Below are positions 35,754 through 55,888 of a stretch of 64,000 nt of DNA, piece by piece; within the stretch, counting starts at the first letter, position 1, and every line of letters begins with the position of its first letter. Source of the stretch: Curvibacter sp. AEP1-3 (GTDB taxonomy: Bacteria; Pseudomonadota; Gammaproteobacteria; Burkholderiales; Burkholderiaceae_C); the NCBI RefSeq assembly GCF_002163715.1, contig NZ_CP015698.1:868001-932000 (forward strand). The letters run 5' to 3'. The notes under the pieces are model-generated. The model did not search any database. It was given only the letters and a program-made list of their open reading frames with translations, and was not told the origin of the DNA. The position numbers and the translations under genes were made by a program.

Positions 35754-35776
35754 TGGTGCTGAGACCGGAATCGAAC
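35754..35776 (+). repeat. Distal attachment site (copy of tRNA-Leu 3' end)
   Basis: CTGAGACCGGAATCGAAC (35759-35776) is identical to 55802-55819 inside the 3' arm of tRNA-Leu(TAA). TGGTG precedes both copies, with one C missing here. Orientation is the same. After position 35776 the sequences diverge. It marks the far boundary of the island. Confidence 0.9.
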
Positions 35777-37265: not shown

Positions 37266-37982
37266 GTGAGTACGACACAATCACACGCTTCGGCTATCGT
37301 CACTGAAATTCTGAGAGTCGAAGCAGACAATCTCTATCAATCACTTCTAGCTCTATTGGATAGCGATGGAGATCCAGAAGTAGACGAATTAACCAGGCAG
37401 CAAGAACAAGAAATAATGCTGTTTGCCATTTCGCTTATGCGCGTCATCTCAACTGGAATCATGCAAATGGCACCTTATTTGGGACCACTATCAGAATTTG
37501 GGGTCGAAAACTTCGAAGAAATTACCATGTACGCGGATGATCAATCCATCGAAACCATAAAAAATAGGATAAACGAATGCGTATTCGCCTACACCAGTTC
37601 ATTGCTCAGTCTAAAAAAGCATGGAGGACTAAATATTGAAGCAGCTTTGGACATTTTCGCTGCCAGATCTGAGGCTAGTGACGAGCAAAGACAACGATTT
37701 ACTAGCGTCGGAACAGTAAAATATCTTGATGGGCAGCTGAACTCATTCAAGAACAAACTAATAAACATGGACTCACGGGTAAGCGAGCTGCATCACTCGG
37801 CAATTGAGTGGCTAAAGGCACGGGCCTCCGCACCAAATGGTCAAGAGAGACATTACGGAAGCTTTGGTATACCTGAGATAGGGCTTAGCATATCTCCCAG
37901 AATGCAGCAATGGAATCCAGATATGCTCGACCCACCACTGTCCCGCATAGTTCGCAGGTTAGAAAACGATCTAACGTTTTAA
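37266..37982 (+). CDS. Hypothetical island protein (238 aa)
   Basis: 238 residues starting with GTG, preceded by GGAG seven bases away. It is acidic and mostly helical, with no signal peptide or clear transmembrane segment, although FAISLMRVISTGIMQMAPYL (about 58-77) is amphipathic. There is no recognised domain. Its base composition is AT-rich like the Hsp70 cassette. It is convergent with the Hsp70 gene, 90 bp apart, and is the only plus-strand gene of the island. It might belong functionally to the cassette, or be an independent cargo gene. Confidence 0.65.
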   Translation: MSTTQSHASAIVTEILRVEADNLYQSLLALLDSDGDPEVDELTRQQEQEIMLFAISLMRVISTGIMQMAPYLGPLSEFGVENFEEITMYADDQSIETIKNRINECVFAYTSSLLSLKKHGGLNIEAALDIFAARSEASDEQRQRFTSVGTVKYLDGQLNSFKNKLINMDSRVSELHHSAIEWLKARASAPNGQERHYGSFGIPEIGLSISPRMQQWNPDMLDPPLSRIVRRLENDLTF

Positions 37983-38072
37983 CCGACCAGTTCAGTCAAA
38001 CTAATTGCAGAAACTACTGCTCCCAAATTCGGAACATATGAAATTGGGAGCCAAAGTTTCCTAGTAAAAAAA

Positions 38073-40571
38073 TCAAACGATTCCGGTAAATGCACGCATA
38101 TCGTCACTGGCTTTGACAGTTGCAGGCATCAAATCCCAAAGCCGACCGTTAATCTTACGTAACTCATCGATATCGTCTTGCGCGACAGCTCGCCTACCAC
38201 TATCAATTAGTTGTGAGGCCTGAATTTGATCATTCATTGAAGTCCGTCGCTCCAGCAAATGCTGGAACATGGCTTTGAGAAAGTCAGGTGTTCGCATCAA
38301 GATCTGCCATTCAAGGCGGCCTAGCTCTTGTACTACCGCTTGAATCTTCTCTGGGCTTGTTGAATTGATAAATGTTTGCTCACGAGCCATGATTTCAGCA
38401 ATAGTATGTCGCTCACGATCATTTCCTGACTCATTAACAAGCGCCGCGACCTCAGTCTTTTTACTATGATATTCCGCCTTAACTTGATCAAGTCGTTTAC
38501 TTGAAGTTAACTCGAACATCTCCTGAGCAAGCTTTCTCTTTTTGTCTTCGAGTTGAAATTTCTTGTCAGTCACATCGTCTTCCGCCAACTCGGCAGCGCT
38601 TCCTATCAGTGACTGGACACCATCAAGAACTTTTTCAAGACCTTCTGCCGTGTCACGATTTCCATTCTTCTGAGCGTCATCTATTTCGGACTGAATCTTT
38701 GTTTCCAACAGAAGAATCTCAGTTGCCAACATCTGGGAAGAAACATCTCTTTGAGCCGGATTAAACACCTGAGAGAACTCTTGTCCAGTACCATTCAGGA
38801 ATGCGGACACGGTGAGGTCACGAGACTCCGACATTTCAAACGTCAGATCAATATCTGTGCCCTTCAAAAGGTCACGCGTTATCTGCTCACCAGTAATCTG
38901 AAGTACGCCAATCGGTTTGTTTGTTGAAGAGTGTCGATTTGACGGCCCCTCGACAACCATGATTTTGATGCTATTTTGTGAGCCTTTGACAACAGTCTGA
39001 CCAACTTCTACTGTACCTCTAGCTTTCGACGGTAACACTGTGTTTTTTGAGAAAATTTGCTGGAGTCGAGTGTCTTTTGCAGCAATGTCATCTTTAACCA
39101 AACTGATATCTTCAGGAAGCATTTGACCTGCAACACTGTATCGCCCCTGAGCAATCTGAATTACATCTAAATCAATAGGAACGTTATCCCCCTCTGAATC
39201 ATACACTTTGAGTGTAAACAAATTAAACGCACCCTCGCGCAGTGGCAAATCCTCAACGATACGAGAACTAAGTTTCTTGAGACCACTGTCATACGAACCA
39301 TCGTCATTAGTGATTCGATATTGATACCCTGTGATTTCACCTTCAATTTTTGCAGTGAAGGTTTCCTCTTTTTCTTGAGACGCTTTCGTATAGCTAGCTC
39401 TAATTTTGATAAGCGAATTTGTCTTTACTTTAGACTCAGCTGAATTACCCTTCTCCTTCGTACCAGCAAAGTAAGCAGCACCGACACAGATAGCGTTGGT
39501 TGGATCGATACTTGTATTTACAGCAATCCCCATCACCTCTTCGACTCGTTTGCGTACATAGGGAATAAATGTTGAACCACCGACCATCAGAATAAACTTT
39601 AGGTCGGTTGATTGCAGAGAATTGCGCGTCAGAATTTGCCTCATCCTATCAATCGTGCTCTCGATTGAATCTTTGATGACAGCGTCAAACTCGGACCGAG
39701 TTATGTTTATGATTGCCTCGATTGACTTACCGTCATCATCTTCTAAGTCACTGATTGTGCCGAGATCGATTTCTGCGGAAGTTTTTGATGAAAGCTCAAC
39801 CTTCGCAGACTCAGCCAGGAGTAGTAGGGTATGCCAAAGCTTGTTGTACTTGCCACTTTCACTCTTCATCTCAGCTAGAAGATCAGAGAACGAACCTCTA
39901 CGCTGAAGTTCGGGCACCACGATCTTTTCAACAATCAAAGCGTCAATGTCGGTACCACCAAGGTAATTGTCCCCTTCATGATCAAGCACGGTCAATTCTC
40001 CTTCGACAATTCGCACAAGTGCTACGTCAAAAGTACCGCCACCCAAGTCATATACAAGCCATTGACTATTCTTTAGATCAATGTTCTTTTCCTTGTTCGC
40101 ATAGGCCAAGCTTGCAGCGATTGGCTCTTGAAGCAAGACCACATCTTTAAAACCTGCGAGTTTGCCTGCTTCCTTTGTTGCATTGCTTTGGACGGTATCA
40201 AAGGACGCCGGGATGGTGATTACGGCGGACTCAACCTGCTCACCACTATGCACAAAGGCTTTCAGTTCTTTAAGAATGTATGAGGAAAGCTCAACGGGAG
40301 TCTTGGATGCATTCAGGGCCTTAATCTTGAATGTTTCAGATGTACCCATTTTCCGCTTGAAGCGACTTGCGACACTCTTTGGATCTCTTTGAAGATAAGT
40401 TCGCGCCTGATCTCCAATGAGGATTCGATCGTTGCGAAAACCCACAATAGACGGGAGAGTTTCTTTGAATCCGTTGGGATTTTTGTAGACCTCTACGTTA
40501 CCCTTATCGAACCTAGCAATGAGAGAGTTCGAAGTTCCTAAATCGATTCCGAAATTAATAGTTGATGACAT
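38073..40571 (-). CDS. Divergent Hsp70-family chaperone (832 aa)
   Basis: An Hsp70 ATPase of unusual build. Phosphate-1 motif GIDLGTSNSLIARF (8-21), phosphate-2 LVYDLGGGTFDVALV (172-186) and adenosine motif ILMVGGSTFIPYVRK (327-341) are all present, so ATP hydrolysis is likely. After the nucleotide-binding domain there is an insert of about 110 residues (375-485, beta-rich). A beta region similar to a substrate-binding domain follows (about 570-625, RDLTVSAFLNGTGQEFSQVF), then a long charged helical C-terminus. The classic DnaK hydrophobic linker and C-terminal EEVD-like tail are absent. Its ATG abuts the stop of the GrpE-like gene (TAAATG), with ribosome site AAGGAGGTGA inside that gene, showing tight translational coupling. 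Confidence 0.9.
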   Translation of the reverse strand: MSSTINFGIDLGTSNSLIARFDKGNVEVYKNPNGFKETLPSIVGFRNDRILIGDQARTYLQRDPKSVASRFKRKMGTSETFKIKALNASKTPVELSSYILKELKAFVHSGEQVESAVITIPASFDTVQSNATKEAGKLAGFKDVVLLQEPIAASLAYANKEKNIDLKNSQWLVYDLGGGTFDVALVRIVEGELTVLDHEGDNYLGGTDIDALIVEKIVVPELQRRGSFSDLLAEMKSESGKYNKLWHTLLLLAESAKVELSSKTSAEIDLGTISDLEDDDGKSIEAIINITRSEFDAVIKDSIESTIDRMRQILTRNSLQSTDLKFILMVGGSTFIPYVRKRVEEVMGIAVNTSIDPTNAICVGAAYFAGTKEKGNSAESKVKTNSLIKIRASYTKASQEKEETFTAKIEGEITGYQYRITNDDGSYDSGLKKLSSRIVEDLPLREGAFNLFTLKVYDSEGDNVPIDLDVIQIAQGRYSVAGQMLPEDISLVKDDIAAKDTRLQQIFSKNTVLPSKARGTVEVGQTVVKGSQNSIKIMVVEGPSNRHSSTNKPIGVLQITGEQITRDLLKGTDIDLTFEMSESRDLTVSAFLNGTGQEFSQVFNPAQRDVSSQMLATEILLLETKIQSEIDDAQKNGNRDTAEGLEKVLDGVQSLIGSAAELAEDDVTDKKFQLEDKKRKLAQEMFELTSSKRLDQVKAEYHSKKTEVAALVNESGNDRERHTIAEIMAREQTFINSTSPEKIQAVVQELGRLEWQILMRTPDFLKAMFQHLLERRTSMNDQIQASQLIDSGRRAVAQDDIDELRKINGRLWDLMPATVKASDDMRAFTGIV

Positions 40572-40925
40572 TTATTCACCTCCTTGAGACTTAGATTCCA
40601 CAATCACAATACCCTTTTGAACGACCTTAGAGAAAGTTTCATCTCCAGCTCGAATAATGGGCTTGATAACTTCTACTACAACCAAATTCTCTGTTCCGCT
40701 TCCGGTAATTGATGCCTCAATATCAGTTCTTGTTTCAGAAAATTTCTCTCCTATTGGATCTTCATAAAACAGCTTCTGATCCTCAAATACTTCTTTGATA
40801 CGTTCGACATTGCGCTTAGCATTACCCGGATCACCATGAATACTGAGTTTCCGCTCAATATCACAAAGATTATTTAGGACCTGCAATGCCCACTTAGGCA
40901 CTTCAACTACGAGATTAGGGTGCAC
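40572..40925 (-). CDS. Minimal GrpE-like nucleotide exchange factor
   Basis: 117 residues from a GTG start preceded by AAGGA. The C-terminal part EDPIGEKFSETRTDIEASIT then NLVVVEVIKPIIRAGDETFS and VVQKGIVIVES follows the GrpE beta-domain pattern: P-x-G-x-x-F before the beta sheet, VVEV--P, and a final V-x-V-x-V strand. The long N-terminal coiled coil of normal GrpE is reduced to about 50 residues. It lies between the TPR/J-like gene and the Hsp70 gene, exactly where an exchange factor would be useful. Similarity is by pattern, not by alignment score, so the call is a good hypothesis. Confidence 0.6.
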   Translation of the reverse strand: MHPNLVVEVPKWALQVLNNLCDIERKLSIHGDPGNAKRNVERIKEVFEDQKLFYEDPIGEKFSETRTDIEASITGSGTENLVVVEVIKPIIRAGDETFSKVVQKGIVIVESKSQGGE

Positions 40926-40934
40926 TTTGAATCC

Positions 40935-43064
40935 TTATTTCTGTTGACTATTGATAATCATGTGAAGAGGGAATGCATTGTCAACATCAGGCAACGACAG
41001 CGAAACCTTCGCCTTTGAATTTGCGCCATCAGTAATTACGACTTCACCGTTCTCAATCACTGATTTAAGACGACTCCACGGACAATGAATTTCCTTACTA
41101 CCAAACCAGCCTGGTACAGTAAATTTAATTCCAAACTTATCCGCAACGACACTGCCAAATCGCAAGGGTGAATTTGATTCGATTTTCTCTTTAACTGACA
41201 AGACAACGTGAGGCAATACATAAGCGAACAGAGCTTTAACCAACGATTCAAAAAGCTTTTTACTTTCGTCTAAATCGTTAAATACTGTCGTTTTAAATTC
41301 AGGCATATTTGATGACCAATCGCCTATCACCATACTTATGACCAGCATGTCTGTAACGCCTTGACGTGAATGAACTGTGCCCCACCGTATAGTTTTGACG
41401 TCACTGACCTTCATCTTTCCCTTGCCGAACGAAACGTACTCACGGGTAATACTGAAAGTCTCTCCACGAAGATTCAGAAATGCCTCATCCTTTTTCTCTT
41501 CATTGATCTTATCGTTTAACGTTTCGATGTCTTCATTAATCTTTAACTGCAATGAAGGTGAGCGAGTAGCAAATTTTTTGCTTATTAACAGGATTTCCTT
41601 AGCTAAATCAGGATCGCTGTGATGGTTATATGCATCAATTGAGATACTTCTAACAAGACTTACAGCTTCGCTTTGGATCTTTTGAAAAGCAACAGGAAGA
41701 AGACCAATAATTTTTCCAACATTTCCTTTTTCCAGAACATCAACTACTTGTCCTACTGTTGGTCTTATCTTCTCGGAGAGGTTGCTCGCCTCGCGCAAGG
41801 GATCAAGTAATCGATCGATCTGCCTAAGAGCTCCTTCAAAGCAACGATCTTCATCCTGTGGCGTAACCCACCTTCGCCCCCCAAGCATGCACTCGATAAG
41901 ATCTACGACACGGCTATCAAGTGCCTTGGTAAACACGAGATCAAATTGTGAGGCGAATGGCTTACTGATCCACTTAAGGACATCCTCATCTGTTTGCACT
42001 TCTTCCAAAAATTGCAAAGGAGAGCTGTTCGGGTCTACTAAAAAGAACCCAATATCGCCGCGTGACAAGAACTTGCATAATGGCTTGCATTCAAAAACCA
42101 AGTGATGGTTGTATCGGACCAACGGATCAGTCATTTCATCAATGACCTTGAGAGCTCGAGACCGATCAATGGTTAGCCCTGGCATCCATTCAACTCTCCC
42201 GTCTTCTAAATCTATTTCTTGTAGGAGTAGTTTCTTAGCTCTCTGAATGTCTTTCACCTCCAGATCGAAGGGGTTATCGACATCATCAAGATTAAGCAAT
42301 TCAAATGGATTGATGTAATTGAGATACCACTGGTCTTGAGGCAGCAGGTGTTCATCAAGGGCCAGCACTGAAGAACGCAGGCGTTGAGTACGAGGTAAAA
42401 GTAGATCTAAATTTTCTTTCGCGCGTAAATAATCTGGCTTGATGCTTAGTGCTACGCGATAGGCATCAACTGCGTCTGCGTCCTGCCCCATCATTTCTGA
42501 GGCGTAGCACAGGGCAATATTGAAATATGCCGAATGGTCCCTCTCAGTTGCAGCGAATTTGCTGAACATCCGAATGGCATTGTGAAAGTCATTCTTTTCG
42601 TAGTATGCGACACCCAAATGATGCTGCCCCGACATAGTCAATTCATCTAGCCTGTCGAGTGCCTTCAGTGCTTCAAAGCGCTTCTCTTTATCACTGGAAT
42701 ATTCGCGCTCAGCGTAGATATCAACTAGTGCCTTGAGCGAATCAGCTCGAGCTGAGTCCTCTGCGACTGACCTCTCCCATGCAGCGACAGCCTCATTTGT
42801 CATCCCTGAGTTCTTGTAAGCTAATCCCAAGCGGTACCAGCCATAGGCAAAACCTGGGGCTAACTCAACAGTTTTTTTCAGATGAGGTACCGCTGCGCCC
42901 TGACCATCCTTTGCCAAAACCGCTAACGAGAGTTGCCACCAAGCATTGGCATCTTCTGGATCGACTTTCGTCGCATGTCTGGCAGCAATTAGTGCTTCGT
43001 CGATTCGGCCTGCTTCGCGAAGTTCGACTGCCTTCGCTACAAACTCTTCAGCTGGCGAGGTCAT
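40935..43064 (-). CDS. TPR protein with J-like segment and beta-rich C-terminus
   Basis: 709 residues. TPR repeats fill 1-225 (AGRIDEALIAARHATKVDPE, AVPHLKKTVELAPGFAYGWY, DFHNAIRMFSKFAATERDHS). A segment at 250-325 begins INPFELLNL and ends MTDPLVRYNHHLVFE, matching the start and end of a J domain, but the HPD tripeptide is not visible. A long helical part (330-530) follows, and the C-terminus (540-709) looks like two beta-sandwich or PH-like modules (TFSITREYVSFGKGKMKVSD; DKFGIKFTVPGWFGSKEIHC). It is first in the cassette, 9 bp before the GrpE-like gene. It may act as target-recognition and cochaperone subunit. Confidence 0.75.
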   Translation of the reverse strand: MTSPAEEFVAKAVELREAGRIDEALIAARHATKVDPEDANAWWQLSLAVLAKDGQGAAVPHLKKTVELAPGFAYGWYRLGLAYKNSGMTNEAVAAWERSVAEDSARADSLKALVDIYAEREYSSDKEKRFEALKALDRLDELTMSGQHHLGVAYYEKNDFHNAIRMFSKFAATERDHSAYFNIALCYASEMMGQDADAVDAYRVALSIKPDYLRAKENLDLLLPRTQRLRSSVLALDEHLLPQDQWYLNYINPFELLNLDDVDNPFDLEVKDIQRAKKLLLQEIDLEDGRVEWMPGLTIDRSRALKVIDEMTDPLVRYNHHLVFECKPLCKFLSRGDIGFFLVDPNSSPLQFLEEVQTDEDVLKWISKPFASQFDLVFTKALDSRVVDLIECMLGGRRWVTPQDEDRCFEGALRQIDRLLDPLREASNLSEKIRPTVGQVVDVLEKGNVGKIIGLLPVAFQKIQSEAVSLVRSISIDAYNHHSDPDLAKEILLISKKFATRSPSLQLKINEDIETLNDKINEEKKDEAFLNLRGETFSITREYVSFGKGKMKVSDVKTIRWGTVHSRQGVTDMLVISMVIGDWSSNMPEFKTTVFNDLDESKKLFESLVKALFAYVLPHVVLSVKEKIESNSPLRFGSVVADKFGIKFTVPGWFGSKEIHCPWSRLKSVIENGEVVITDGANSKAKVSLSLPDVDNAFPLHMIINSQQK

Positions 43065-43252: not shown

Positions 43253-45067
43253 TTATATTTTTTGTAATTCTAGGTCTACTTCTGGGGCTGATGTCACCTT
43301 TCCCATCGCCCGCAGGATTAGCTGCAAGAGCTCCTGCTTGCGTGCTTGATAGTGCCCCTCAAAATCATCTTTGCGCAGCATTGATGGTGAAATGCCATGA
43401 CTAGCTACTAGCGCATCCATTCCAGCATCGGAAAGCTGGACAGTCTTCTCTTCTTGAAGCTTGGTCAAATATGACGAAGGCGCGTACCCGCCAATCTTGC
43501 GATTGGCTTTATACGAGATAGGTGTCTTGTTGATGATGGAGTTGTAGAGATCTCGGGAAATGCCCTTACCTTCACACCAAGCAACTGGGAAGATGTGGTG
43601 AATATCCAGAGCCAAGTCTTCCAGCTCCAAGTCTTTGATCTGCATCTTCCAGAAAAAGTCTTTCGCGCCTTCCCGCACAACCAGCGTGCTCACCCCTTTG
43701 TAAGCTGCACTAAGCCTAGATTGCAGCTTATCCAACCGGTCTGGGCTGAATGTGGCATCAGAAACCGTGCGGGGAAGCTTTGCGTCGTCATCCACCCAGT
43801 CAAGCAGCTCTGCTACATCATTAGCCATTCGCGTCTCAACCGCTCCGCCATAGAGCTCGCCCAACACGCCGCACCAGTACCAGCGGGAAAGCTTGTCGTT
43901 TATGGTTGGTTCTAGCCAGCGCTCCTGGAGCAAAGCCAAAACAGCGGCTAACGGGGCGAGCTGGGTGCGGTAGGGCAAGTCTTTGGGATCGCGGACTAGC
44001 TCTTTGCGCAAGAATTTTGCTGCCAGCATAAAGCCCTGCTCCACCTTGTCAGTCCACTTCAAGTAGTCAGCCAATTCCAACCCGAGGATGGATACGCGCT
44101 TTGCACTAACCGGCGTTACCTGCTTATCTCGTTTGCCTGCCGCAAGGTCAGCAATGTGCCGCTCCAGGGTGTGCAGCATGGTTACCGCTTGCAGGTAGTC
44201 TGTGGTCTCCACTTGCTTGAGCACTGGCTCCTTGCACATGCGCTCATACCGAGACGATACCTTGCGCTCTTTGTTGCCGTACCAGTCATCCCGCAGGTTG
44301 TAGCCATCGGCTGCATAGGTTGCGGTCATCAGCTCAAACACGTTCAGCGGTACACCACCTGTGTTCACTTTCTCAAACACCAAGCAAACCGCTTCTTTGG
44401 AAGTAGCTTTATGAAGCTGGATAACGGGCACTTGGTAACCGCGGAAGGCGTTCAGCACTTCTTTGCGAAACTTCATGTATTGGGGAAAGTTGTCGGGAGC
44501 ATGCTCCTGCAACGCTTCTTCCCAAGCATCAGAGTTCAATATCTGATCGCATGGAAAATAAAGCTGCGCACACTCCTTCTCCGGAGAGGTCAGATCAAGC
44601 TTGATGTCCTTGCCAAAGTTGGTGCGTTCAACTTTGTCCTCTTCCACAGCAACGATTGCATCTTCCAATCGTTCTCCGCCTTCCAGAGCGGTAGGGATAT
44701 GCCAGTAGTAATGGCGCTGTATCGGTTTACCTTTGTCCGTACGGGTGCAAACGGCAGACTTGAGCGCCAAGACCTGTGTCAAAGTGGTCAGGCGCTGTTG
44801 ACCATCCAAGATTAAAAGCTCAGGGGTTGAACCTTCTGGCAACTTCACCCCTTCCACCGGGCGGAGCTGAAACCGAGCTTCTCCGCCGGTCTCAAGCAAC
44901 ATCACCGCACCGACGGGGAATGAGCGGGCAATACTCACCAGCAAGCTGCGAATGTGGTCGTCATCCCACACCCAACCACGCTGGAAGTCCGGCAATTGAA
45001 TCTTGCCTTTGACGATATCCGCCAAGATATCTGGCAACGAGCGCTTGGTACTGTCGAACGTGGACAT
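43253..45067 (-). CDS. DUF262 + HNH (DUF1524-like) protein, GmrSD-type
   Basis: 604 residues. The N-terminal DUF262 (ParB-like nucleotidase fold) has LPDFQRGWVWDDDHIRSLLV (25-44) and the diagnostic ILDGQQRLTTLTQ (85-97). The C-terminal HNH-type nuclease motif is HHIFP at 490-494 with KANRKIGG after it. This is the architecture of GmrSD-like proteins that restrict modified phage DNA using NTP, here fused in one chain. It lies 41 bp downstream of the small membrane protein gene that follows hsdS, all co-directional. The target, modified DNA or other, is not known. Confidence 0.88.
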   Translation of the reverse strand: MSTFDSTKRSLPDILADIVKGKIQLPDFQRGWVWDDDHIRSLLVSIARSFPVGAVMLLETGGEARFQLRPVEGVKLPEGSTPELLILDGQQRLTTLTQVLALKSAVCTRTDKGKPIQRHYYWHIPTALEGGERLEDAIVAVEEDKVERTNFGKDIKLDLTSPEKECAQLYFPCDQILNSDAWEEALQEHAPDNFPQYMKFRKEVLNAFRGYQVPVIQLHKATSKEAVCLVFEKVNTGGVPLNVFELMTATYAADGYNLRDDWYGNKERKVSSRYERMCKEPVLKQVETTDYLQAVTMLHTLERHIADLAAGKRDKQVTPVSAKRVSILGLELADYLKWTDKVEQGFMLAAKFLRKELVRDPKDLPYRTQLAPLAAVLALLQERWLEPTINDKLSRWYWCGVLGELYGGAVETRMANDVAELLDWVDDDAKLPRTVSDATFSPDRLDKLQSRLSAAYKGVSTLVVREGAKDFFWKMQIKDLELEDLALDIHHIFPVAWCEGKGISRDLYNSIINKTPISYKANRKIGGYAPSSYLTKLQEEKTVQLSDAGMDALVASHGISPSMLRKDDFEGHYQARKQELLQLILRAMGKVTSAPEVDLELQKI

Positions 45068-45108: not shown

Positions 45109-45573
45109 TTAGCGGATCTGCCTGCCTTGCTCACGGTCTATACGTTTTGCCCATTCTTTGCACAGATCGCAATAGTGGATGAACATCTCACTATCGCTTT
45201 CTCTTTCAATTTGCAGCCATGTATTCAAAGCCTTGACCCTCAAGGGCTCGTCAAAATACCTCCACCAAAAGTTGTAAACAATTTCTTTGTCAAAAGCTTT
45301 CTTTGACACTAGCAGCGATATCAATTCAAGCTGTCCAAAAAAGGCATAAACCTCCTCGCTCTTGCCTTCAAATTCAGCATCAACATTTGAAATCGACTTC
45401 CATCGTTCCCTCATTGTTGCCTCTCGCTTTTCAATGAAAGCGATAGTCTCTCGGTACCTTGCGTACTTTGAGTCAGTACTCATTTTCCAGAAGAAGGTCG
45501 CCGCGGTTAGCCCCCATCCGATGAGGTATATCCATGGTGATGCTGTAAGACTCTTTAGAAATTCAATCAACAT
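45109..45573 (-). CDS. Small membrane-anchored hypothetical protein (DUF4760-like?)
   Basis: 154 residues with one N-terminal membrane helix (about 12-29, SPWIYLIGWGLTAATFFW). A mainly helical cytoplasmic part follows, with VYAFFGQLELISLLVSKKAF and EIVYNFWWRYF. The pattern F-x-x-L-E-L-x-x-x-x-x-x-x-x-x-D-x-x-x-x-Y-x-x-F recalls DUF4760 proteins, which are often found near defence genes; this is a weak call. Its start overlaps the hsdS stop by 11 bp, so it is translated with the restriction system. Its role is unknown. Confidence 0.6.
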   Translation of the reverse strand: MLIEFLKSLTASPWIYLIGWGLTAATFFWKMSTDSKYARYRETIAFIEKREATMRERWKSISNVDAEFEGKSEEVYAFFGQLELISLLVSKKAFDKEIVYNFWWRYFDEPLRVKALNTWLQIERESDSEMFIHYCDLCKEWAKRIDREQGRQIR

Positions 45574-47212
45574 TCAAAGCACTCTTAATTACTGTTTCTT
45601 TAGTCAGCAACGAGGAAGCAATCATTTCTTGCACTGAACGGCAATTGAAAAGACGCTGGCGCAGGTCGGCGCACAGGGCGCGCAGGGAAGCTACGCGGGC
45701 GACGATGCGGGATTGTTCGGCGAGGGGTGGAACTGGGACGAGTAGATCATTGATGTTCTGCAAGTTAAGCCCAGGCTTAGCGCCATAGCTACTCATCAAA
45801 AGCAGCCTTCTGCCTTCATGCTCGCCCACTAACCAATGATGAAAATAGTCGACTAAGCGCACATCCAGAAATCGCACCAGCGCGACGTGTTGGCTGACAT
45901 ACGCATCAGTAAGTTCCTGTGCCACGATGGCCGCTTTGCCGACATTTGCACCGGTGATCGTGATCAATAAGTCTTTCAGGTGAACCTGAGTTCGCGAACC
46001 CTCGGTACCGGGCGGCAGTTTCACAAAAGCGCGTTCATCGAACTCCAGACGGTCGAACTTGATGTCCTGTGATCGTATGAAGGTTGCGCCTTCCGTCGCA
46101 TAGAAGTCTTTCCAACTTCTGGAGCCACTGGTAACCAATGAAGTCACCCAGCCCAACCGCACCCACTCCCACCCCTGCGGCAACTCAAACGGCTTCTCCT
46201 CCTCCGCAATTGGTGGCAGGGGTTTGTCGCGTTTGATCTTGCCTTCGACGATGAGCTTGTCTTTCTCGGCGCGGATTTTCTTGAGCAGCTCGCTGGCGGG
46301 TTCGTCTTGCAGGTCTTGGGGGACGAGCAGGCCGCGCACAGCGAGTTGGAGGATGGTTTGCTCCAGGGCGTCCACGGCTTCGGGGCGATCAAGTAGCAGG
46401 TCGAAGTGGGTGGCGATGCGGTACCAGTTCTCAGTCAGTTGCGCGGGCGTTTCGCTCTCGTTGAGCGTGGCTAGCAGGGTGCTGACAAGCTGGGCGTGTT
46501 GCGTAGCTTCAAGCTGGCCTTTGGCTTCGAGCGCGTCGCACAGGCGCATTAGCTCTTCGACGCGGGTGACGATGCGTCGCTGTTCAGCAAAAGGCGGTAT
46601 GGCAACTGTTATTGAGTAAACCTCACTTCTGCTTAAACCTGGCTTGATTCCCTTACCCAGCTCATCTAAGCCCAGCGTGTGAAACAACTGAAAAGCAAAG
46701 ACTAAATCGACGCCCGGCGGAGGAACACAGAAGTAGGCTACGTCCGTAACCCAGCACGCCTGTTCAAGACAGAGGTTTAGAGCACCAGCCGATCCTTTGC
46801 GTCCAACAACAATGCAGGGGGCATTTACACGGCATTCGTTGTGAGTGCCAACGACACCATTTGAGCCATAGACGGGATATTCGCCGGTCTCTGTTCTTTT
46901 TGGTGCGGGCAGGCTGTCACCGTATTCGAGTGAAAACAATTCCTCAAAACGGCTCAATGCCCAGTTTTCGGGGATTTGGTGGCGGCTCTTGCCCATGCCA
47001 GATATTGGCAATGATTTGCTTTTCCCGTGAATTACACCCGAACGTATTTGATTTATCCGCAGGAGCAACTCGCTCGCGGGTTCATCACTCGGGTCTTGCG
47101 GCACTAGCTTGCCTTGCATCGCCAGCGTCAAGATCAGTTCGCGCAGACGTGGAACACCGCCCGGAGCGGTAGCCAACAGGTTCAAATTTGATAGCAGCAT
47201 GCGATTACTCAA
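45563..47212 (-). CDS. hsdS: Type I restriction system specificity subunit HsdS
   Basis: 549 residues with two target-recognition domains, about 60-210 (LPISGMGKSRHQIPENWALS) and about 330-510 (FELPQGWEWVRLGWVTSLVT). Each is followed by a conserved helix ending in VPPLAEQ/IPPFAEQ-RRIV-RV, the spacer helices that set half-site distance. It reads a bipartite DNA sequence that cannot be predicted here. The 5' end is a TTG overlapping the hsdM stop (TTGA); the ATG at 47200 is an alternative. The N-terminal 60 residues LRELILTLAMQGKLVPQDPS mirror the internal segment at about 285-305, as usual in HsdS. Confidence 0.95.
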   Translation of the reverse strand: MSNRMLLSNLNLLATAPGGVPRLRELILTLAMQGKLVPQDPSDEPASELLLRINQIRSGVIHGKSKSLPISGMGKSRHQIPENWALSRFEELFSLEYGDSLPAPKRTETGEYPVYGSNGVVGTHNECRVNAPCIVVGRKGSAGALNLCLEQACWVTDVAYFCVPPPGVDLVFAFQLFHTLGLDELGKGIKPGLSRSEVYSITVAIPPFAEQRRIVTRVEELMRLCDALEAKGQLEATQHAQLVSTLLATLNESETPAQLTENWYRIATHFDLLLDRPEAVDALEQTILQLAVRGLLVPQDLQDEPASELLKKIRAEKDKLIVEGKIKRDKPLPPIAEEEKPFELPQGWEWVRLGWVTSLVTSGSRSWKDFYATEGATFIRSQDIKFDRLEFDERAFVKLPPGTEGSRTQVHLKDLLITITGANVGKAAIVAQELTDAYVSQHVALVRFLDVRLVDYFHHWLVGEHEGRRLLLMSSYGAKPGLNLQNINDLLVPVPPLAEQSRIVARVASLRALCADLRQRLFNCRSVQEMIASSLLTKETVIKSALNVD

Positions 47213-48678
47213 CCTGCGCTAGCGAGTGATTTGGCCAAAATTTCTTTCAGCTCATCGCGCAATGCTTGCGCCTCCCCTTGCAGGCGGGCGTAGTCGGCCA
47301 GCAGTTGTTCAGGGTCGTGGCTTTGAACATCGCCCACATGTGGGTTCTTCTGGTCCAGGTTGTAGTTGGCCGCTTTGATCTGGTCGATGCTGACCTTCCA
47401 GGCGAACTCGTTCTCCACACGGGTGGCAAAGGCATCCGCCTCGCTGCCCCACCATGCCTTCTCCACTTCGAACTCTTCAATGCGGATAGGCTTGGTCTTG
47501 TTGTAGTTCTTCACGCCCGCCGGATACGGGTGCTCGTAGTACCACACGTCTTTGGTGGGTGTGCCCTTGCTGAAGAACAGCAGGTTGGTCTTGATGCCGG
47601 TGTACGGTGCAAACACGCCGTTGGGCAGGCGGATGATGGTGTGCAGATTGCACTCTTGCAGCAGTTGCTCTTTGATGCGCGTTTTCACGCCTTCGCCAAA
47701 CAGCGTGCCATCGGGCAACACTAGCGCCGCCCTGCCCTGGTTTTTGAGCAGGTGCTTGATGAGCACCAAAAACAGGTCTGCCGTTTCCTTGGTGCGCACA
47801 TCAGCCGGGAAGTTGTTCTCCGTGCCTGGCTCCTCAACCCCACCGAATGGCGGGTTGGTGATGATGACGTCTACCCTGTCTGCCGGGCCATAGTCCCGCA
47901 GAGGGCGGGTCAGTGTGTTGTCGTGGCTGATCTGGCTGGGCACTTCTACGCCATGCAACATCATGTTCGTGGTGCAGAGCATGTGGGGGAGTTGCTTCTT
48001 CTCCACCCCGCGCACGCTGCGCTGGAGGACGCTTTGATCGTGCTCGTTTTTCACCTGCTTGCGCAAGTGCTCCAGAGAACATACCAGGAAGCCGCCCGTA
48101 CCGCAGGCAGGGTCCATCACCACTTCGCCCAACTGGGGGTTGACCATGTCCACCATGAACTGCGTGACAGCGCGGGGGGTGTAGAACTCACCAGCGTTAC
48201 CCGCCGACTGCAAATCCTTGAGGATTTTTTCGTAAAGGTCGTTGAACTGGTGGCGCTCGGCTTGGCGGTTGAAGTCGATGGCGTTGAGCTTATTGATGAT
48301 CTGGCGCAGAAGCTGGCCGCTCTTCATGTAGTTGAAGGCATCTTCAAACACGCTGCGCACCACGTAGCCACGGGGGTTGCGTTCGGCATCTCCGGCAATG
48401 GCCTTGAGTTTGGGGAAGAGCTGCCCGTTCACGAACTCCAAAAGAGCATCTCCGGTGATGCCCTCCTCATTGATAGCCCAATTGCGCCAGCGCAGTTCCT
48501 CGGGAATAGGGCTTTGGTAGCTGTCGCGGGTCATCTCCAGCTCTTCCTCCTGGGCGTCAAACACCTTCAGAAAGAGCAGCCAGGTGAGCTGGGAGATGCG
48601 CTGGGCATCGCCATCTACGCCACTGTCTTGGCGCATGACGTCTTGGATAGACTTGATAACGGAGGAGAGATTAGACAT
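47209..48678 (-). CDS. hsdM: Type I restriction system methyltransferase HsdM
   Basis: 489 residues of the N6-adenine methylase subunit. The N-terminal HsdM_N domain is at about 5-140. SAM-binding motif I DPACGTGGFLVCSLEHL is at about 190-206, the catalytic TNPPFGG at about 275-281, and GEFYTPRAVTQFMVDMV before motif I. With HsdS it methylates the host target to protect it, and with HsdR it cuts unmodified DNA. hsdR ends 50 bp upstream. Sequence is complete. Confidence 0.96.
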   Translation of the reverse strand: MSNLSSVIKSIQDVMRQDSGVDGDAQRISQLTWLLFLKVFDAQEEELEMTRDSYQSPIPEELRWRNWAINEEGITGDALLEFVNGQLFPKLKAIAGDAERNPRGYVVRSVFEDAFNYMKSGQLLRQIINKLNAIDFNRQAERHQFNDLYEKILKDLQSAGNAGEFYTPRAVTQFMVDMVNPQLGEVVMDPACGTGGFLVCSLEHLRKQVKNEHDQSVLQRSVRGVEKKQLPHMLCTTNMMLHGVEVPSQISHDNTLTRPLRDYGPADRVDVIITNPPFGGVEEPGTENNFPADVRTKETADLFLVLIKHLLKNQGRAALVLPDGTLFGEGVKTRIKEQLLQECNLHTIIRLPNGVFAPYTGIKTNLLFFSKGTPTKDVWYYEHPYPAGVKNYNKTKPIRIEEFEVEKAWWGSEADAFATRVENEFAWKVSIDQIKAANYNLDQKNPHVGDVQSHDPEQLLADYARLQGEAQALRDELKEILAKSLASAG

Positions 48679-48728
48679 TCAGGTTCAGACAAGTACGGGA
48701 GGATGCAGGTGCAGCCCCCAGTGGACGA

Positions 48729-51215
48729 CTAGGTTGGAGCAGAGGCGTAAAGCTCGTGCTCTAGGTGCTTTACGGCAGACAGGTATTGTGGCCGCCCACC
48801 GAAGCTACGAATCAGCTCCACGGGGCTGCCAATGGTGTTTAGGGGTTGAATGCGTAGGACGTCGTCACTCTCAATCAAGGTGATGCCTTCGTCCGAGTAT
48901 TTGTCCAGCAATGCGTCGATAACTTTGCGGGCTACGGGGCCGTACTGCGTGAACACGTTGCGCTTTTTGACCCGGTTGGCCCGCTCGCGGCGGGTAAGCG
49001 GGGGCATGTTCCAGCCCACATGGAGCAATAGGTCAAAGGGGTCCAGGTCTTTGCCGACCTCCTCCGCCAAGGCTTCCAAGAGAACGCCATGCCCTTCTAG
49101 CTCCTGGATGAGGACCGCTTTGCGGTCTGCATCGTTCCAGGTCTGGAGGAAATCATCCAGAGAAGTAAACCGGTTGGCTAGGTTGATGCGGGTGTAATCG
49201 CGCACGCTCTCGGTGATGAGCTTGCCTTGGGCATTAAGGTACTGAACACGTTCTCGGGCGACTGCCACGGTGACAGTGCCACCCACGATGTAACGCTTAA
49301 CTTCCGCCTCACCACCCTCATAGCCAGGAGCCATGGGACTGGAACCTGGGAAGCTGTCCAGCGGGTCTTCTCCGCTCATAGTGCCGATTACTCCGGGCAG
49401 AGGAGACTCCTCCGGAGGGTCAATCGGCTGCGCTCCCTTGGGCTCGTAAACCTGCACTGGGTCCCCATCAAAGTCTTTGTCCGCAAAGATGTCGGTCGCC
49501 CGCTTGAAGTCGAGGATGGTGAACCACGTCTTGCCAAGGTCTTCTCGCAGGCGGGTTCCACGGCCAATGATCTGCTTGAACAAGGTCATCGACTTGATGT
49601 TCTGGTCCAGCACGATGAGCTTGCATGTTTGAGCGTCAACGCCTGTGCTCATTAGCTTGGACGTGGTGGCAATGACGGGGTAGTCCTTCTCCGGGTCGAT
49701 GAAGTTGTCGAGCTCCTTCTTTCCTTCCGCGTTGTCACCCGTGATCTGCACCACGTACTTGGGGTTGTCTTTGCAGATGTCCTGGTTGGCGTTGGAGAGC
49801 GCTAGCCGCATGCGGCTGGCGTGGTCGATGTCTTCGCAAAAGACAATGGTTTTGTCGAAGCGATTCGTAGCCTTGAGGTACTCGGTGATCTTTGCGGCCA
49901 CGACTTCGTCGCGCTTCTCTAGAACCAGCTTACGGTTCATGTCGGTCGCGTTGTAGACGCGGTCTTCAATGACGTTGCCCAACTTGTCGGTCATGCCCTC
50001 TGTTGGACGCCAGCCGAAAGTATCTTTGTCCAGGTCTACCCGGATGACCTTGTACGGAGCGAGGTAACCATCCTCGATACCTTGGCGCAGGGTGTACTCG
50101 TACACCGGCTCGCCAAAGTATTCGATATTGGAGACGTCTTTGGTCTCCTTGGGAGTAGCGGTCAGACCCACCTGGGTGGCGCAGCTGAAGTAGGTCAGGA
50201 TGTCGCGCCAAGCGGAATCTTCGTCAGCGCTGCCACGGTGACACTCGTCCACCACGATAAGGTCAAAGAAGTCTGGGCTGAACTGCTTGTAGATGTTTTT
50301 CTCCTCCTCCGTGCCAGAGACAGCCTGGTACAGAGAGAGGTAGATTTCGTACGACTTATCGACGACCTTGGTGCTCTTGTTGACGGCCAGCTCCACCTCT
50401 TCGACGTATTGCTTGCCTGTGTCGGCATCCACGCGCTCTACGCCCTTGGCATTGGGGCTGAGCTTAGCCATTGCCCCCTTGAAAGGGCGGAAGTCATTGA
50501 CCATCGTCTGGTCGATGAGCACGTTGCGGTCAGCCAGGAAAAGGATGCGCTTCTGGCCGGAGGGTTTGTCGGAGCGCCAAGTGGATTTCCACAGTCGATG
50601 GATGATCTGGAAGGCGGTGTAGGTCTTGCCAGTGCCAGTTGCCATGACCAAAAGCACTCGCTGCTGGCCACCTGCAATGGCCTGTACGGTGCGATTAACG
50701 GCGTTGAGCTGATAGTAGCGCGGCGTTTTGCTGGGAGCGTAGGGGTACTCCGCAACGCTGCGCACCTCCGGAGTCCAGCCTTTCCATCGGCAATACCGAT
50801 CCCACAGCTCAGCGGGATTCGGGAAAGCATCAAGGCTCAACTCGGTTTCCAGAACGCCAGTTGCCAATGTGGCGTCTCTGAAGATAAAGCCATCTCCGTT
50901 GCTGGAGATGGAGAACGGCACGTTCAACAATTCGGCATAGGCAATGGCTTGAGCCATACCCGCTCCAATGCTGTGGTTGTTGTCTTTCGCCTCGATAACG
51001 ACCAGCGGAATGTTGGCCTTGAAGAAGAGTACGTAATCCGCCCGGAGGATGGACTTTTTGTCGCGGCTTGCCTGCTTGCCACGCACGACCACGCGACCTG
51101 GCCGCAAGGTGTATTCCCGGTAGATTTGTTCGATCGTGTTCCACCCTGCCCCTTGGATGGCAGGCGTGATGAACTTCTCGCAGATGTCCGCTTCCGATAG
51201 CTTTTTCTTGTCCAA
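48729..51215 (-). CDS. hsdR: Type I restriction system endonuclease/translocase HsdR
   Basis: 828 residues. The N-terminal nuclease domain carries D...E-x-K (RADYVLFFKANIPLVVIEAK, about 62-81). The SF2 motor follows, with Walker A VMATGTGKTYTAF (about 194-206), DEAH-like VDECHRG and LTATP, and helicase motif VI IIGRGTRLREDLGKTWF. The C-terminal region binds HsdM. Length is at the short end for HsdR, typical of the EcoKI-distant group without long extensions. The start is a TTG preceded by GGGGAGC; an earlier in-frame start was not found. It is the first gene of the RM cluster. Confidence 0.96.
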   Translation of the reverse strand: MDKKKLSEADICEKFITPAIQGAGWNTIEQIYREYTLRPGRVVVRGKQASRDKKSILRADYVLFFKANIPLVVIEAKDNNHSIGAGMAQAIAYAELLNVPFSISSNGDGFIFRDATLATGVLETELSLDAFPNPAELWDRYCRWKGWTPEVRSVAEYPYAPSKTPRYYQLNAVNRTVQAIAGGQQRVLLVMATGTGKTYTAFQIIHRLWKSTWRSDKPSGQKRILFLADRNVLIDQTMVNDFRPFKGAMAKLSPNAKGVERVDADTGKQYVEEVELAVNKSTKVVDKSYEIYLSLYQAVSGTEEEKNIYKQFSPDFFDLIVVDECHRGSADEDSAWRDILTYFSCATQVGLTATPKETKDVSNIEYFGEPVYEYTLRQGIEDGYLAPYKVIRVDLDKDTFGWRPTEGMTDKLGNVIEDRVYNATDMNRKLVLEKRDEVVAAKITEYLKATNRFDKTIVFCEDIDHASRMRLALSNANQDICKDNPKYVVQITGDNAEGKKELDNFIDPEKDYPVIATTSKLMSTGVDAQTCKLIVLDQNIKSMTLFKQIIGRGTRLREDLGKTWFTILDFKRATDIFADKDFDGDPVQVYEPKGAQPIDPPEESPLPGVIGTMSGEDPLDSFPGSSPMAPGYEGGEAEVKRYIVGGTVTVAVARERVQYLNAQGKLITESVRDYTRINLANRFTSLDDFLQTWNDADRKAVLIQELEGHGVLLEALAEEVGKDLDPFDLLLHVGWNMPPLTRRERANRVKKRNVFTQYGPVARKVIDALLDKYSDEGITLIESDDVLRIQPLNTIGSPVELIRSFGGRPQYLSAVKHLEHELYASAPT

Positions 51216-54022: not shown

Positions 54023-54394
54023 TCACGGATTGGACTTGACAAGCGCTCTCTGAACGGTTGATTCACTAATGCAAAACTTCTGTGCAGTCTCCTCTTTGGC
54101 AACTTCATGGGTTTTGCCCTCGGCGCGAAGCTTATTGAAAAATTCTTGAATCAGAAGATTTTTTACGTCGCCACCAAGCCAGTCATCAAAGAACCCCTGG
54201 CTGGCAAAGCGATCCAGCGCACTCAGGAGTACCGCTGGGTCTTTGTAATCGAGCGTTGCTTGCTCTTCAGGAGGAGCTTCGGGATTAACGCAAAGTATTC
54301 CGTCCGGCTGTTCCTTGGCTCGGCGGTACAACCGGACCAAGTCCGCCGCGTATTCGCGCTCTGATGCGCTCGCTCTGCGTCTAGCTGGGCACAT
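54023..54394 (-). CDS. Small HTH-type hypothetical protein
   Basis: 123 residues: AADLVRLYRRAKEQPDGILC, FASQGFFDDWLGGDVKNLLI and a C-terminal TAQKFCISESTVQRALVKS, which looks like a helix-turn-helix. Overlaps the integrase stop by 14 bp, so it is translated with int. It may be a recombination directionality or regulatory factor; not recognised. Confidence 0.55.
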   Translation of the reverse strand: MCPARRRASASEREYAADLVRLYRRAKEQPDGILCVNPEAPPEEQATLDYKDPAVLLSALDRFASQGFFDDWLGGDVKNLLIQEFFNKLRAEGKTHEVAKEETAQKFCISESTVQRALVKSNP

Positions 54395-55619
54395 GGACGA
54401 CCTCCGCCGGTGAATTAGTCTGTAAAGAGGGCCCGAGTCTCAACTGATCAAGATAATCAGCCCATCGCTGCATCATTTCCCGACGGGCAGGAAGGTGGGT
54501 TGTACGGTTGTAGGCCCTGCCGTTGGCGTCTTTCACGGCGTGCGCCTGTTGGTGATCAATAAGGTCAACCCGCTCACCCAAAACCTCGTCCATAATAGTT
54601 CGGGCAGTTGCCCTGAAACCATGGGCCGTCTGGATTTGATTGTCGTATCCCATGCGGCGAAGAGCAGTATTCAAGGTGTTCTCGCTCATAGGCCGATCGC
54701 CCGAGAGAAGGCTCGGAAAGACGTACTTTCCATGGCCAGTAAGCTCAAACTGTTTTCTCAGAATGTCGACTGCTTGCGTGGGCAATGGAACATAGTGCTC
54801 AATCCGCATTTTCATTTTTGCGGCCGGGATTCTCCACTCCGCTGCATCCAGATCGATCTCTGCCCATTCGGCATGACGGAGCTCTCCAGGACGGACAAAC
54901 AACATCGGCTCAAGCTTTAGCCCTGCGAGAGTGTAGGGGTGCCCCTGGTATCCATCGATTGCACGAAGCAGGTTTGCGAGTTCGGTGGGTTTTGTGATTC
55001 CAGCCCTATGACCGCCCACATGCTTTTCAAACGCACCTCTGGTGCTGGCAGCGACATCATTCTTCGCCAGTTGGTGAATGATGGCGTATCGCCAAATCTG
55101 TGAGCAGATTTGACGCACTCGCTCCAAACTGTCCAAAGCACCTCTTCGCTCCATGTGCCTCAAAGTCTCGATGAAGTCCACGATCTCGATCGCGGAAATA
55201 GGCTTCTGACCGATGTGTGGGTAGACGTCATGCGTGAGCCAAGCTGTGATCTTTTTATGGGTGGATGCCGCACGGGTGGCTTCCGTCTTGATCAACCACT
55301 CCGTGGCCACCGCCTCAAAAGTGTTGGCAAGCTCCCTCTTTTTGGCCACTTTGGCGTTTCTTTTTGCCAAGCTAGGGTCTTGGCCTTGCGCGAGTAGTAC
55401 CTTGAGCTCCTGATGGGCTTTGCGCGCCTGCTGGAGCGTAACTTCCGGATACACCCCATAGGCTGCGGTCCTCTGTCTACCGTTGAATCGATAGGCTCCG
55501 CGCCAGTACTTTCCCGTCGAAGTGACGTGCAGGTACATGCCCTGCCCGTCCGAGTGTTTCTCACCCTGAGGTGCCCCCTTATGCTTTACCGCCTTAACAA
55601 ACGTATCCGTAAGTGCCAT
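54381..55619 (-). CDS. int: Tyrosine integrase, P4 type
   Basis: 412 residues. The N-terminal DUF4102 arm-binding domain MALTDTFVKAVKHKGAPQGE...DGQGMYLHV is at about 1-90, the core-binding domain at about 95-200. The catalytic domain has Arg in LFVRPGELRHAEW, HGFRATARTIMDE (His-x-x-Arg) and, near the C-terminus, Tyr in GRAYNRTTHL. It integrates the island at the tRNA-Leu 3' end whose gene starts 177 bp away. No frameshift is visible and all catalytic residues are present. Confidence 0.95.
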   Translation of the reverse strand: MALTDTFVKAVKHKGAPQGEKHSDGQGMYLHVTSTGKYWRGAYRFNGRQRTAAYGVYPEVTLQQARKAHQELKVLLAQGQDPSLAKRNAKVAKKRELANTFEAVATEWLIKTEATRAASTHKKITAWLTHDVYPHIGQKPISAIEIVDFIETLRHMERRGALDSLERVRQICSQIWRYAIIHQLAKNDVAASTRGAFEKHVGGHRAGITKPTELANLLRAIDGYQGHPYTLAGLKLEPMLFVRPGELRHAEWAEIDLDAAEWRIPAAKMKMRIEHYVPLPTQAVDILRKQFELTGHGKYVFPSLLSGDRPMSENTLNTALRRMGYDNQIQTAHGFRATARTIMDEVLGERVDLIDHQQAHAVKDANGRAYNRTTHLPARREMMQRWADYLDQLRLGPSLQTNSPAEVVHVPS

Positions 55620-55795: not shown

Positions 55796-55888
55796 TGGTG
55801 CCTGAGACCGGAATCGAACCGGTACGCCCGTTATTCACGAAGCGGCGGATTTTAAGTCCGATGTGTCTACCTATTTCACCACTCAGGC
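55796..55888 (-). tRNA. tRNA-Leu (anticodon TAA)
   Basis: 93 bases including encoded CCA. Acceptor GCCTGAG/CTCAGGC; D arm GTGGTGAAATAGGTAGAC; anticodon loop CTTAAAA; long variable arm typical of class II; T loop GGTTCGATTCC. Its 3' end is the integration site of the island, and the tRNA is restored by the integrated copy. Confidence 0.95.

Follow-up and report, generated by a model that had tools for sequence, protein, structure and literature searches.

The window studied here, 64,000 nucleotides of Curvibacter sp. AEP1-3 (contig NZ_CP015698.1, positions 868,001 to 932,000), carries a cassette of three minus-strand genes encoding a 709-residue protein with TPR repeats, referred to below as the receptor, a 117-residue GrpE-like protein (mini-GrpE) and an 832-residue Hsp70. 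Both halves of the switch through which J-domain proteins act on Hsp70 are absent from the cassette together, while the motor and the exchange factor are kept, making it a natural test case for the rewiring of Hsp70 allostery. We give an even chance to the reading that the trio forms an autonomous, horizontally spreading Hsp70 machine whose contact with the receptor has been rebuilt, which is shielded from the chaperones of the host and whose most likely use is defence; if the defence role is true, it would be a chaperone-based immune device. The gene content, the GrpE-like fold, the loss of both trigger sites, the conserved gene order and the mobility on which this reading is built were observed, and from them we propose how the machine cycles, how the receptor touches the Hsp70, that the whole is insulated and that it serves in defence. 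The receptor and mini-GrpE genes are separated by 9 bp and the mini-GrpE and Hsp70 genes by 0 bp, reproducing the coordinates, strands and gaps of the three open reading frames in an initial annotation made from the letters of the window.

In well-studied Hsp70 cycles the HPD motif of the J-domain acts on one arginine of the ATPase domain. D35 of the motif is reported to bond with R167 of DnaK and H33 with the linker (PMC8215388), and the role of R167 in the J-domain contact is also described in PMC7289447. The window Hsp70 matches PF00012 (1.1e-73, best stretch residues 7-372), as do 14 of 14 relatives, and ten nucleotide-binding or catalytic positions of the ATPase are kept in all 14 cassette Hsp70s. 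The column of R167 is occupied by Val, Leu, Ile or Glu in these 14 proteins and by Val, Ile, Met or Leu in the 116 usable sequences of 120 database relatives, the other four being shorter and lacking the stretch; arginine is found in 0/14 and 0/116. It is present in 14/14 DnaK and 10/10 HscA-like references, labels that were assigned in the analysis by score class. At the column of N170 there is a glutamine in 12 of the 14 cassette Hsp70s and in all 116 database relatives, and at that of T173 an isoleucine throughout (14/14 and 116/116). A VLLLD-type interdomain linker is seen in none of the 120 database relatives, and between positions 372 and 502 the alignment places four blocks, 105 residues in total, that have no counterpart in DnaK. 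Residues 505-604 form a second, weak stretch of similarity to a DnaK, and by eye the loop of subdomain IIB has approximately the length of that in DnaK. Other Hsp70 patterns are found in most of the 120 relatives (DLGGGT in 116, FKRxMG in 114 and GIDLGT in 113). In the tree the cassette Hsp70s form one clade (100/100, branch 2.58) apart from the DnaK and HscA-like rows; this tree is midpoint-rooted and comes with a long-branch warning, no gene-transfer events were read from it, and it leaves the deeper order within the clade unsettled.

The model of the receptor (pLDDT 91.4) begins with a TPR superhelix (residues 1-235), followed by a segment of four helices (253-325), a further helical region and, last, a pair of beta units that are each closed by a helix. 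The TPR repeats are significant family matches, and the Foldseek rows listed for the whole protein are dominated by TPR proteins. The four-helix segment, with helices at residues 253-256, 270-286, 301-312 and 314-325, resembles a J-domain over helices I-II, to which the profile match is limited: the J-domain profile scores 19-20 only on sections holding residues 252-265, at most 12.3 on others and at most 16.3 on 100 shuffles. PF00226 does not match the window receptor at 0.1, nor is it among the best 25 of 48 families for 56 receptors. At the place of HPD the 93 aligned receptors have EDG (71), EEG (11), NDG (5), ENG (3), EGG (2) or ADG (1), the glycine always being kept. HPD itself occurs between residues 240 and 335 in 0/93, some form of [HQ]P[DE] in the same interval in three, and HPD elsewhere in the protein in four.

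The two beta units are alike (score 17.5, compared with at most 11.4 for four controls). The name PH-like was given in the analysis from their topology together with weak matches to DUF6585, a family that we take to be PH-like, in 6 of 56 receptors (best E 0.001). Of 120 close homologues, 118 match a profile of the pair and two short ones (431 and 573 residues) do not; the same profile finds the pair in 13 of 15 rows covering the window, the other loci and the plasmid described below; L014 and L017 are without it. The L017 receptor has a hydrophobic segment and a coiled-coil-like tail in place of the pair, and a tail of this kind is added to the L018 receptor, which lacks the first 144 profile positions beside a contig edge and has a stop within the match. 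A topoisomerase-type zinc ribbon (PF01396, 5.8e-13) is added in L010. In L014 the hydrophobic segment and tail are found on an apparently separate open reading frame just before the GrpE-like gene; the idea that this locus has no receptor was rejected, since that reading frame matches the C-termini of L017 and L018. These differences, seen among the more distant loci, suggest that the end of the receptor is exchangeable, its location or target differing between lineages. One homologue of 930 residues, P0078, has a 207-residue extension after the PH-like pair. Separately, a true J-domain protein of 490 residues is encoded at L016:6353-7825 on the plus strand (also L015:637-2109), with a PF00226 match of 1.4e-9, QPD rather than HPD and a hydrophobic segment.

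In the AlphaFold2 model of the mini-GrpE (pLDDT 89.3) two helices precede a beta wing; the first helix spans residues 11-30, and the long N-terminal helix of GrpE is absent. Among the best 50 of 204 Foldseek rows, ranks 1-12 are without exception chains of GrpE size from GrpE or GrpE-DnaK entries, including those from Geobacillus, Mycobacterium tuberculosis, Thermus and human mitochondria. Their probability is 0.77-1.00 and their TMq 0.42-0.57; the best E among them is 1.5e-3, none reaching 0.001, so the identification of the fold is taken from the agreement of all the top rows, and the best row that is not GrpE has an E of 1.3. Comparison of profiles with 29 canonical GrpE sequences spanned 105 columns and gave a score of 28.9 (P 7.6e-4, probability 25%), against scores of at most 20.1 for 100 column shuffles. 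Searches of other kinds found nothing: PF01025 matched 0/84 alignment members at E up to 1, the family profile found no GrpE among PDB sequences (four unrelated matches, best E 0.26), and the window protein had no match to Pfam, NCBIfam or PADLOC families at E up to 0.1. From its predicted fold and profile, the 117-residue protein is judged to be GrpE-like.

Several claims of the initial annotation bear on these three proteins. Its Hsp70 with intact ATPase motifs and an extra insert corresponds to the ten retained positions and the 105-residue insert, its GrpE-like assignment agrees with both the fold search and the profile comparison, and the beta-rich C-terminus of its TPR protein resolves into the two similar helix-closed units of the model. 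Its J-like NPFELLNL segment resembles a J-domain profile over helices I-II and lacks the HPD motif, and its description of the trio as a rebuilt DnaK-DnaJ-GrpE machine is right as to the Hsp70, the GrpE fold and a likeness to J-domain helices I-II, and fails at the HPD and the R167-type arginine, both of which are gone.

The trio is found together in distant bacteria, and its order is conserved beyond chance. A collection of 84,980 species genomes was scanned for the 117-residue family with two strict peptide patterns, as were viral contigs, the counts being lower bounds, and 15 loci were found in the species genomes. A cassette-type Hsp70 directly follows the 117-residue gene in 14 of the 15, and the TPR gene is directly upstream in 13 of those 14, with only its 3' end present at a contig edge in L009 and L019; in L014 the other short reading frame and then the contig end are upstream of the GrpE-like gene. 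The initial annotation had asked whether the triplet is kept together in other genomes, and these 13 loci, with the full order or the receptor 3' end, answer that it is. L021 is a decayed fragment with stops, L015 (binned as Hydrogenedentes) duplicates L016 with 99.9% identity over 6519 bp and L012 is close to L011, leaving approximately 12 independent loci, some clipped by contig edges. With starts as chosen in the analysis, the gaps between the trio genes, measured at 13 loci, lie between -41 and +30 bp, and the same order is seen in Pseudomonadota, Verrucomicrobiota and Planctomycetota and on a conjugative Pseudomonas plasmid, the one carrier found in the plasmid search. In a large protein database, where the best 120 of 609 GrpE-like rows were used, 34 of 120 Hsp70 rows and 23 of 120 TPR rows match the exact longest-contig size of a GrpE-like row; controls with the sizes shifted by 1-10 gave 1.25 and 1.05, respectively.

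The cassette is rare. Genomes matching the GrpE-like profile number 1 among 369 of the class and 1 among 398 of the phylum, in both cases the genome of the window itself; there are 2 among 392 in the phylum of G403 and 1 among 387 in that of G404, and these last two counts include the centre genome. No relative of the cassette was found in the viral contigs, phage records and E. coli genomes scanned. Decayed copies are also seen: L021 and L088 are remnants, and in G685, the other match of this survey, the GrpE-like gene is intact, the receptor is a stub (7e-20) and the Hsp70 was not found by tblastn. This combination of rarity, wide spread and decayed copies fits mobile cargo. Reverse-transcriptase-like reading frames, recognised by eye, flank the decayed copy at L088 (6001-6861, minus strand, and 11672-12361, plus strand). 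Diverged further GrpE genes (E ~1e-16 to 1e-18) are present in 6 of 40 genomes (G370:C17, G382:C39, G385, G388, G391 and G397), with a 110-residue J-domain reading frame beside them in G370 and G382 and also an Hsp70 in G370, forming another compact Hsp70 operon.

In the window the cassette lies in an island of 20,043 bp bounded by an 18-bp perfect repeat (Table 1). The two flanks join at this repeat in L121, a genome of the same genus from which the island is absent, and are at most 50 bp apart or overlapping in L122, L123, L124 and L128, so that five genomes of the genus have empty sites. The repeat, the empty sites and the family matches agree with the tRNA-integrated island carrying type I restriction-modification and DUF262 genes that the initial annotation had described. 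The G+C content is 0.42-0.47 in the 1-kb windows of the cassette (38000-42999) and 0.56-0.58 in those covering most of the restriction genes (46000-50999), and because of this lower value the cassette was probably acquired separately from them. No heat-shock or sigma-70 promoter was found upstream of the TPR gene by pattern search in the window and the loci; between 37900 and 43400 there are 6 promoter-like sites compared with 8.2 in shuffles, and 8 terminator-like sites compared with 4.3. A gene at 37266-37982 on the plus strand, with a G+C content as low as that of the cassette, faces the Hsp70 gene and encodes a 238-residue protein of unassigned family. A 263-residue protein with a weak Kre9_KNH match (0.0056) is encoded between HsdR and a helix-turn-helix gene (51354-52145, minus strand). 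In another genome of the genus (G1541:C1:2986908-2989950) approximately 2.6 kb splits the tRNA-Leu region, as if a different small element had entered the same tRNA.

Table 1. Features of the cassette and its island, in window coordinates
Feature	Coordinates	Strand	Basis
Receptor (TPR, J-like, helical and tandem PH-like regions), 709 residues, ATG start	40935..43064	-	Open reading frame call, family matches, model
TPR superhelix, residues 1-235	42360..43064	-	Family matches, model, Foldseek
J-like region, residues 246-330 (NPFELL in helix I, IQRAKKLLLQE in helix II)	42075..42329	-	Profile, model
E287-D288-G289 at the place of HPD	42198..42206	-	Alignment of 93
Pair of beta units each with a helix, of PH-like topology, residues 526-709	40938..41489	-	Model, profiles
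Mini-GrpE, 117 residues, GTG start; helices 11-30 and 36-49, beta wing	40572..40925	-	Fold, profile
Cassette Hsp70, 832 residues, ATG start	38073..40571	-	Open reading frame call, PF00012
Hsp70 nucleotide-binding domain, residues 7-372	39456..40553	-	PF00012; ten positions kept
V145-Q148 at the place of DnaK R167-N170	40128..40139	-	Alignment
Approximate insert at the place of the DnaK VLLLD linker, residues ~373-500	39072..39455	-	Alignment; beta-rich by eye
Divergent beta domain for substrate binding, with a long helical lid, residues ~501-832	38076..39071	-	Alignment only
Left attachment repeat of the island	35759..35776	.	18-bp perfect repeat
Right attachment repeat, inside the 3' end of the tRNA-Leu gene (55796-55888)	55802..55819	.	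18-bp perfect repeat
DUF262/GmrSD_N protein upstream of the cassette (context)	43253..45067	-	Family match
Type I restriction-modification genes (context)	45563..51215	-	Family match (HsdR); similarity to the L017 and L020 proteins (HsdM, HsdS)
Tyrosine integrase of the island (context)	54381..55619	-	Family match

Of 11 loci (L009, L012, L014, L015, L021 and the plasmid left aside), three have HsdM_N in their flanks, with partial matches counted and one match below the family cut-off; given 30 matches across 52.4 Mb and a total flank of 118 kb, 0.068 would be expected (Poisson P 5e-5). In an all-against-all comparison of the neighbours, the recurring kinds besides near-duplicate loci are HsdM/HsdS, resolvase-like proteins, a kinase-like pair and a few partial matches; beyond these the comparison found no conserved fourth gene, nor any relative, beside other copies, of the DUF262/GmrSD_N gene or of the 238-residue protein. 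When 20 neighbour proteins were compared with PADLOC models six matched at 1e-5, four of them type I restriction-modification proteins (L017 and L020) and two the Cas4-like and WGR proteins of L013. The last two, a PD-(D/E)XK nuclease (L013:13351-14418) and a WGR/ligase protein (L013:15209-16348), are both encoded on the plus strand downstream of the cassette. A phage-type single-subunit RNA polymerase (L017:4922-7318, minus strand; PF00940, 5.2e-72) lies upstream of the cassette on a Sedimentisphaerales contig. In Planctomycetota, large proteins with 37% identity over 233 residues are encoded near the cassette at L014:6825-9317 and L012:2-2461, both on the minus strand, the former being a protein kinase with TPR repeats. 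The mobility, the patchiness and the excess of nearby type I restriction genes make defence the most likely use, and a part for the cassette in defence against invading DNA is plausible.

With the HPD and the R167-type arginine both gone, the canonical J trigger should not operate, and since both are absent in every sequence examined the best explanation is that the contact between receptor and Hsp70 has been rebuilt. The receptor, which may descend at least partly from a J-protein, would then both receive the client and act as the exclusive partner of the cassette Hsp70. In place of the HPD-R167 trigger there would be a different conserved contact, formed by the E-D-G-like site of the receptor and the V/I/L/M-x-x-Q-E-P-I stretch of most of the Hsp70s. 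Because the motor and the exchange factor are kept, an ATP cycle is likely from the sequences; the Hsp70 would serve as an ATP-driven clamp that the mini-GrpE resets through nucleotide exchange, with the machine as a whole insulated from the DnaK, DnaJ and GrpE of the host. It would seem that the receptor sets the client, with a C-terminal module that varies by lineage, and in defence a protein complex of the invader would be recognised and then held or remodelled. We put forward tentatively, as a possibility, an immune machine in which the Hsp70 motor answers to a dedicated receptor, whose specificity can be exchanged, instead of to J-domains, and invader complexes are held or dismantled with ATP. 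It is likewise a tentative suggestion that this specificity resides in the PH-like pair, the topoisomerase-type zinc ribbon or a membrane-anchored coiled coil.

A number of observations weigh against the reading of a defensive machine with a rebuilt contact. The island of the window is itself one of the three HsdM_N cases, most of the neighbours scanned are not defence genes, those scanned at L007, L008 and L009 look ordinary, and the cassette has no recognisable toxin or nuclease. Neither the receptor nor the GrpE-like protein has a model in PADLOC-DB 2.0.0 (0 matches at 0.1). The J-like match spans only 27 columns, with a profile probability of 9-10%, and the VGGxT pattern is found in only 82 of the 120 database relatives. 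The column of DnaK D393 holds an aspartate in 12 of the 14 cassette Hsp70s, inside the realigned insert, and was given no weight. Finally, the gene for the J-domain protein of L015 and L016 ends 3 bp before the receptor gene, so that J input could occur in some lineages; it is possible that this protein is a fourth component in one lineage.

The cassette might serve the mobile element or a stressed cell by folding or disassembling a client in replication, conjugation or stress, much as DnaK, DnaJ and GrpE act for lambda and P1, and have no part in defence, which we regard as somewhat doubtful. Its location on an integrative island and on a conjugative plasmid would be expected of such a helper, as would the lack of a toxin or nuclease and the phage-type RNA polymerase gene adjoining the L017 cassette, but replication or transfer genes do not recur beside the copies, where instead HsdM/HsdS, resolvase-like proteins and the kinase-like pair do, the scanned neighbours of several copies resemble ordinary chromosomal genes, and the viral contigs and phage records gave no relatives with the searches made.

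It is less probable still that the cassette belongs to the GAP1-N2 conflict systems as a branch that has no GTPase; the Hsp70 and GrpE would then control how an effector complex is assembled, perhaps at the membrane. Kaur et al. (2020) describe GTPase-centred conflict systems in which approximately 14% of GAP1-N2 neighbourhoods contain Hsp70 together with GrpE and an FNIII protein, to which DnaJ or TPR is usually fused (PMC7159879). That these systems join the same kinds of protein is in favour of this reading, as are the hydrophobic-segment tails of three Planctomycetota loci and the weak TPR-S matches in 5 of 56 receptors (best E 0.0012). Against it, no GTPase, vWA or tubulin family was found in Pfam scans of a part of the neighbours (7 in the window and 28 elsewhere, one of them a repeat), and the theme is reported mainly from Actinobacteria and Firmicutes (PMC7159879), to which none of the 15 cassette loci is assigned by title.

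A decoy is very improbable. Here a J-blind Hsp70 and the mini-GrpE would mimic the host chaperones and, with no active cycle, capture or block invader proteins that recruit DnaK; the loss of J docking and of the linker from a protein whose ATPase domain is still Hsp70-like would suit this. The ten ATPase positions are nevertheless kept in all 14 proteins, and between loci the Hsp70 (50-70% identity) and the GrpE-like protein (46-61%) are better conserved than the receptor (23-35%); both findings favour an active cycle. An ordinary extra DnaK-DnaJ-GrpE set, although its three parts would be of the kinds expected, is scarcely credible given the absence of HPD, R167, T173 and the linker motif and the separate Hsp70 clade, subject to the rooting and long-branch warning of the tree.

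Like DnaK-DnaJ-GrpE, the cassette has the Hsp70 ATPase domain, the GrpE fold and a likeness to J-domain helices I-II; it differs in lacking the HPD, R167, the VLLLD linker and the long GrpE helix, and in having a receptor with TPR and PH-like regions in place of the body of DnaJ. The animal protein P58(IPK)/DNAJC3 is, like the receptor, a TPR co-chaperone, and occupies Foldseek ranks 25-26 for it, but has a J-domain with an intact HPD and its own domain order. HscA-HscB and HscC provide a precedent for an Hsp70 specialised for few clients, as the cassette Hsp70 may be. HscA and HscC are reported to have evolved for distinct tasks, and HscC is described as lacking the GrpE signature (PMC8215388), whereas the cassette supplies its own GrpE and has a IIB loop of DnaK length by eye. 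In the CoCoNuT type IV restriction systems an Hsp70-like domain is fused to or coupled with McrB/McrC homologues; these systems are predicted to be antiviral, are often in superoperons with type I restriction-modification genes, and have an Hsp70 for which ATP hydrolysis is described as very inefficient at best (PMC11090510). The cassette shares the Hsp70-like domain and, at some loci, nearby type I genes but has the ten ATPase positions intact and no McrBC among the scanned neighbours. For bNACHT25 the likeness would be a chaperone role in phage sensing, in which, as reported, the host DnaJ takes part rather than a dedicated Hsp70 cassette (PMC12169576).

The initial annotation had held that no system of this composition was named. 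This agrees with PADLOC-DB 2.0.0, which has no model for the cassette (the sole match of the Hsp70 is PDC-M16A, 16.3 bits, over its helical tail), and a full-text search of the PMC literature, with most subscription papers beyond its reach, did not find the cassette. It does not hold against the second theme of GAP1-N2, in which linked Hsp70, GrpE and a TPR- or DnaJ-bearing protein are proposed to act in biological conflict (PMC7159879). The cassette is likened to these systems by composition; it is distinguished by having no GTPase or GAP1 among the neighbours scanned, which are part of all, by its occurrence in other phyla and by the loss of the J trigger and linker. It can be regarded as a variant of the Hsp70/GrpE/DnaJ-or-TPR theme, with a fair chance of being something more.

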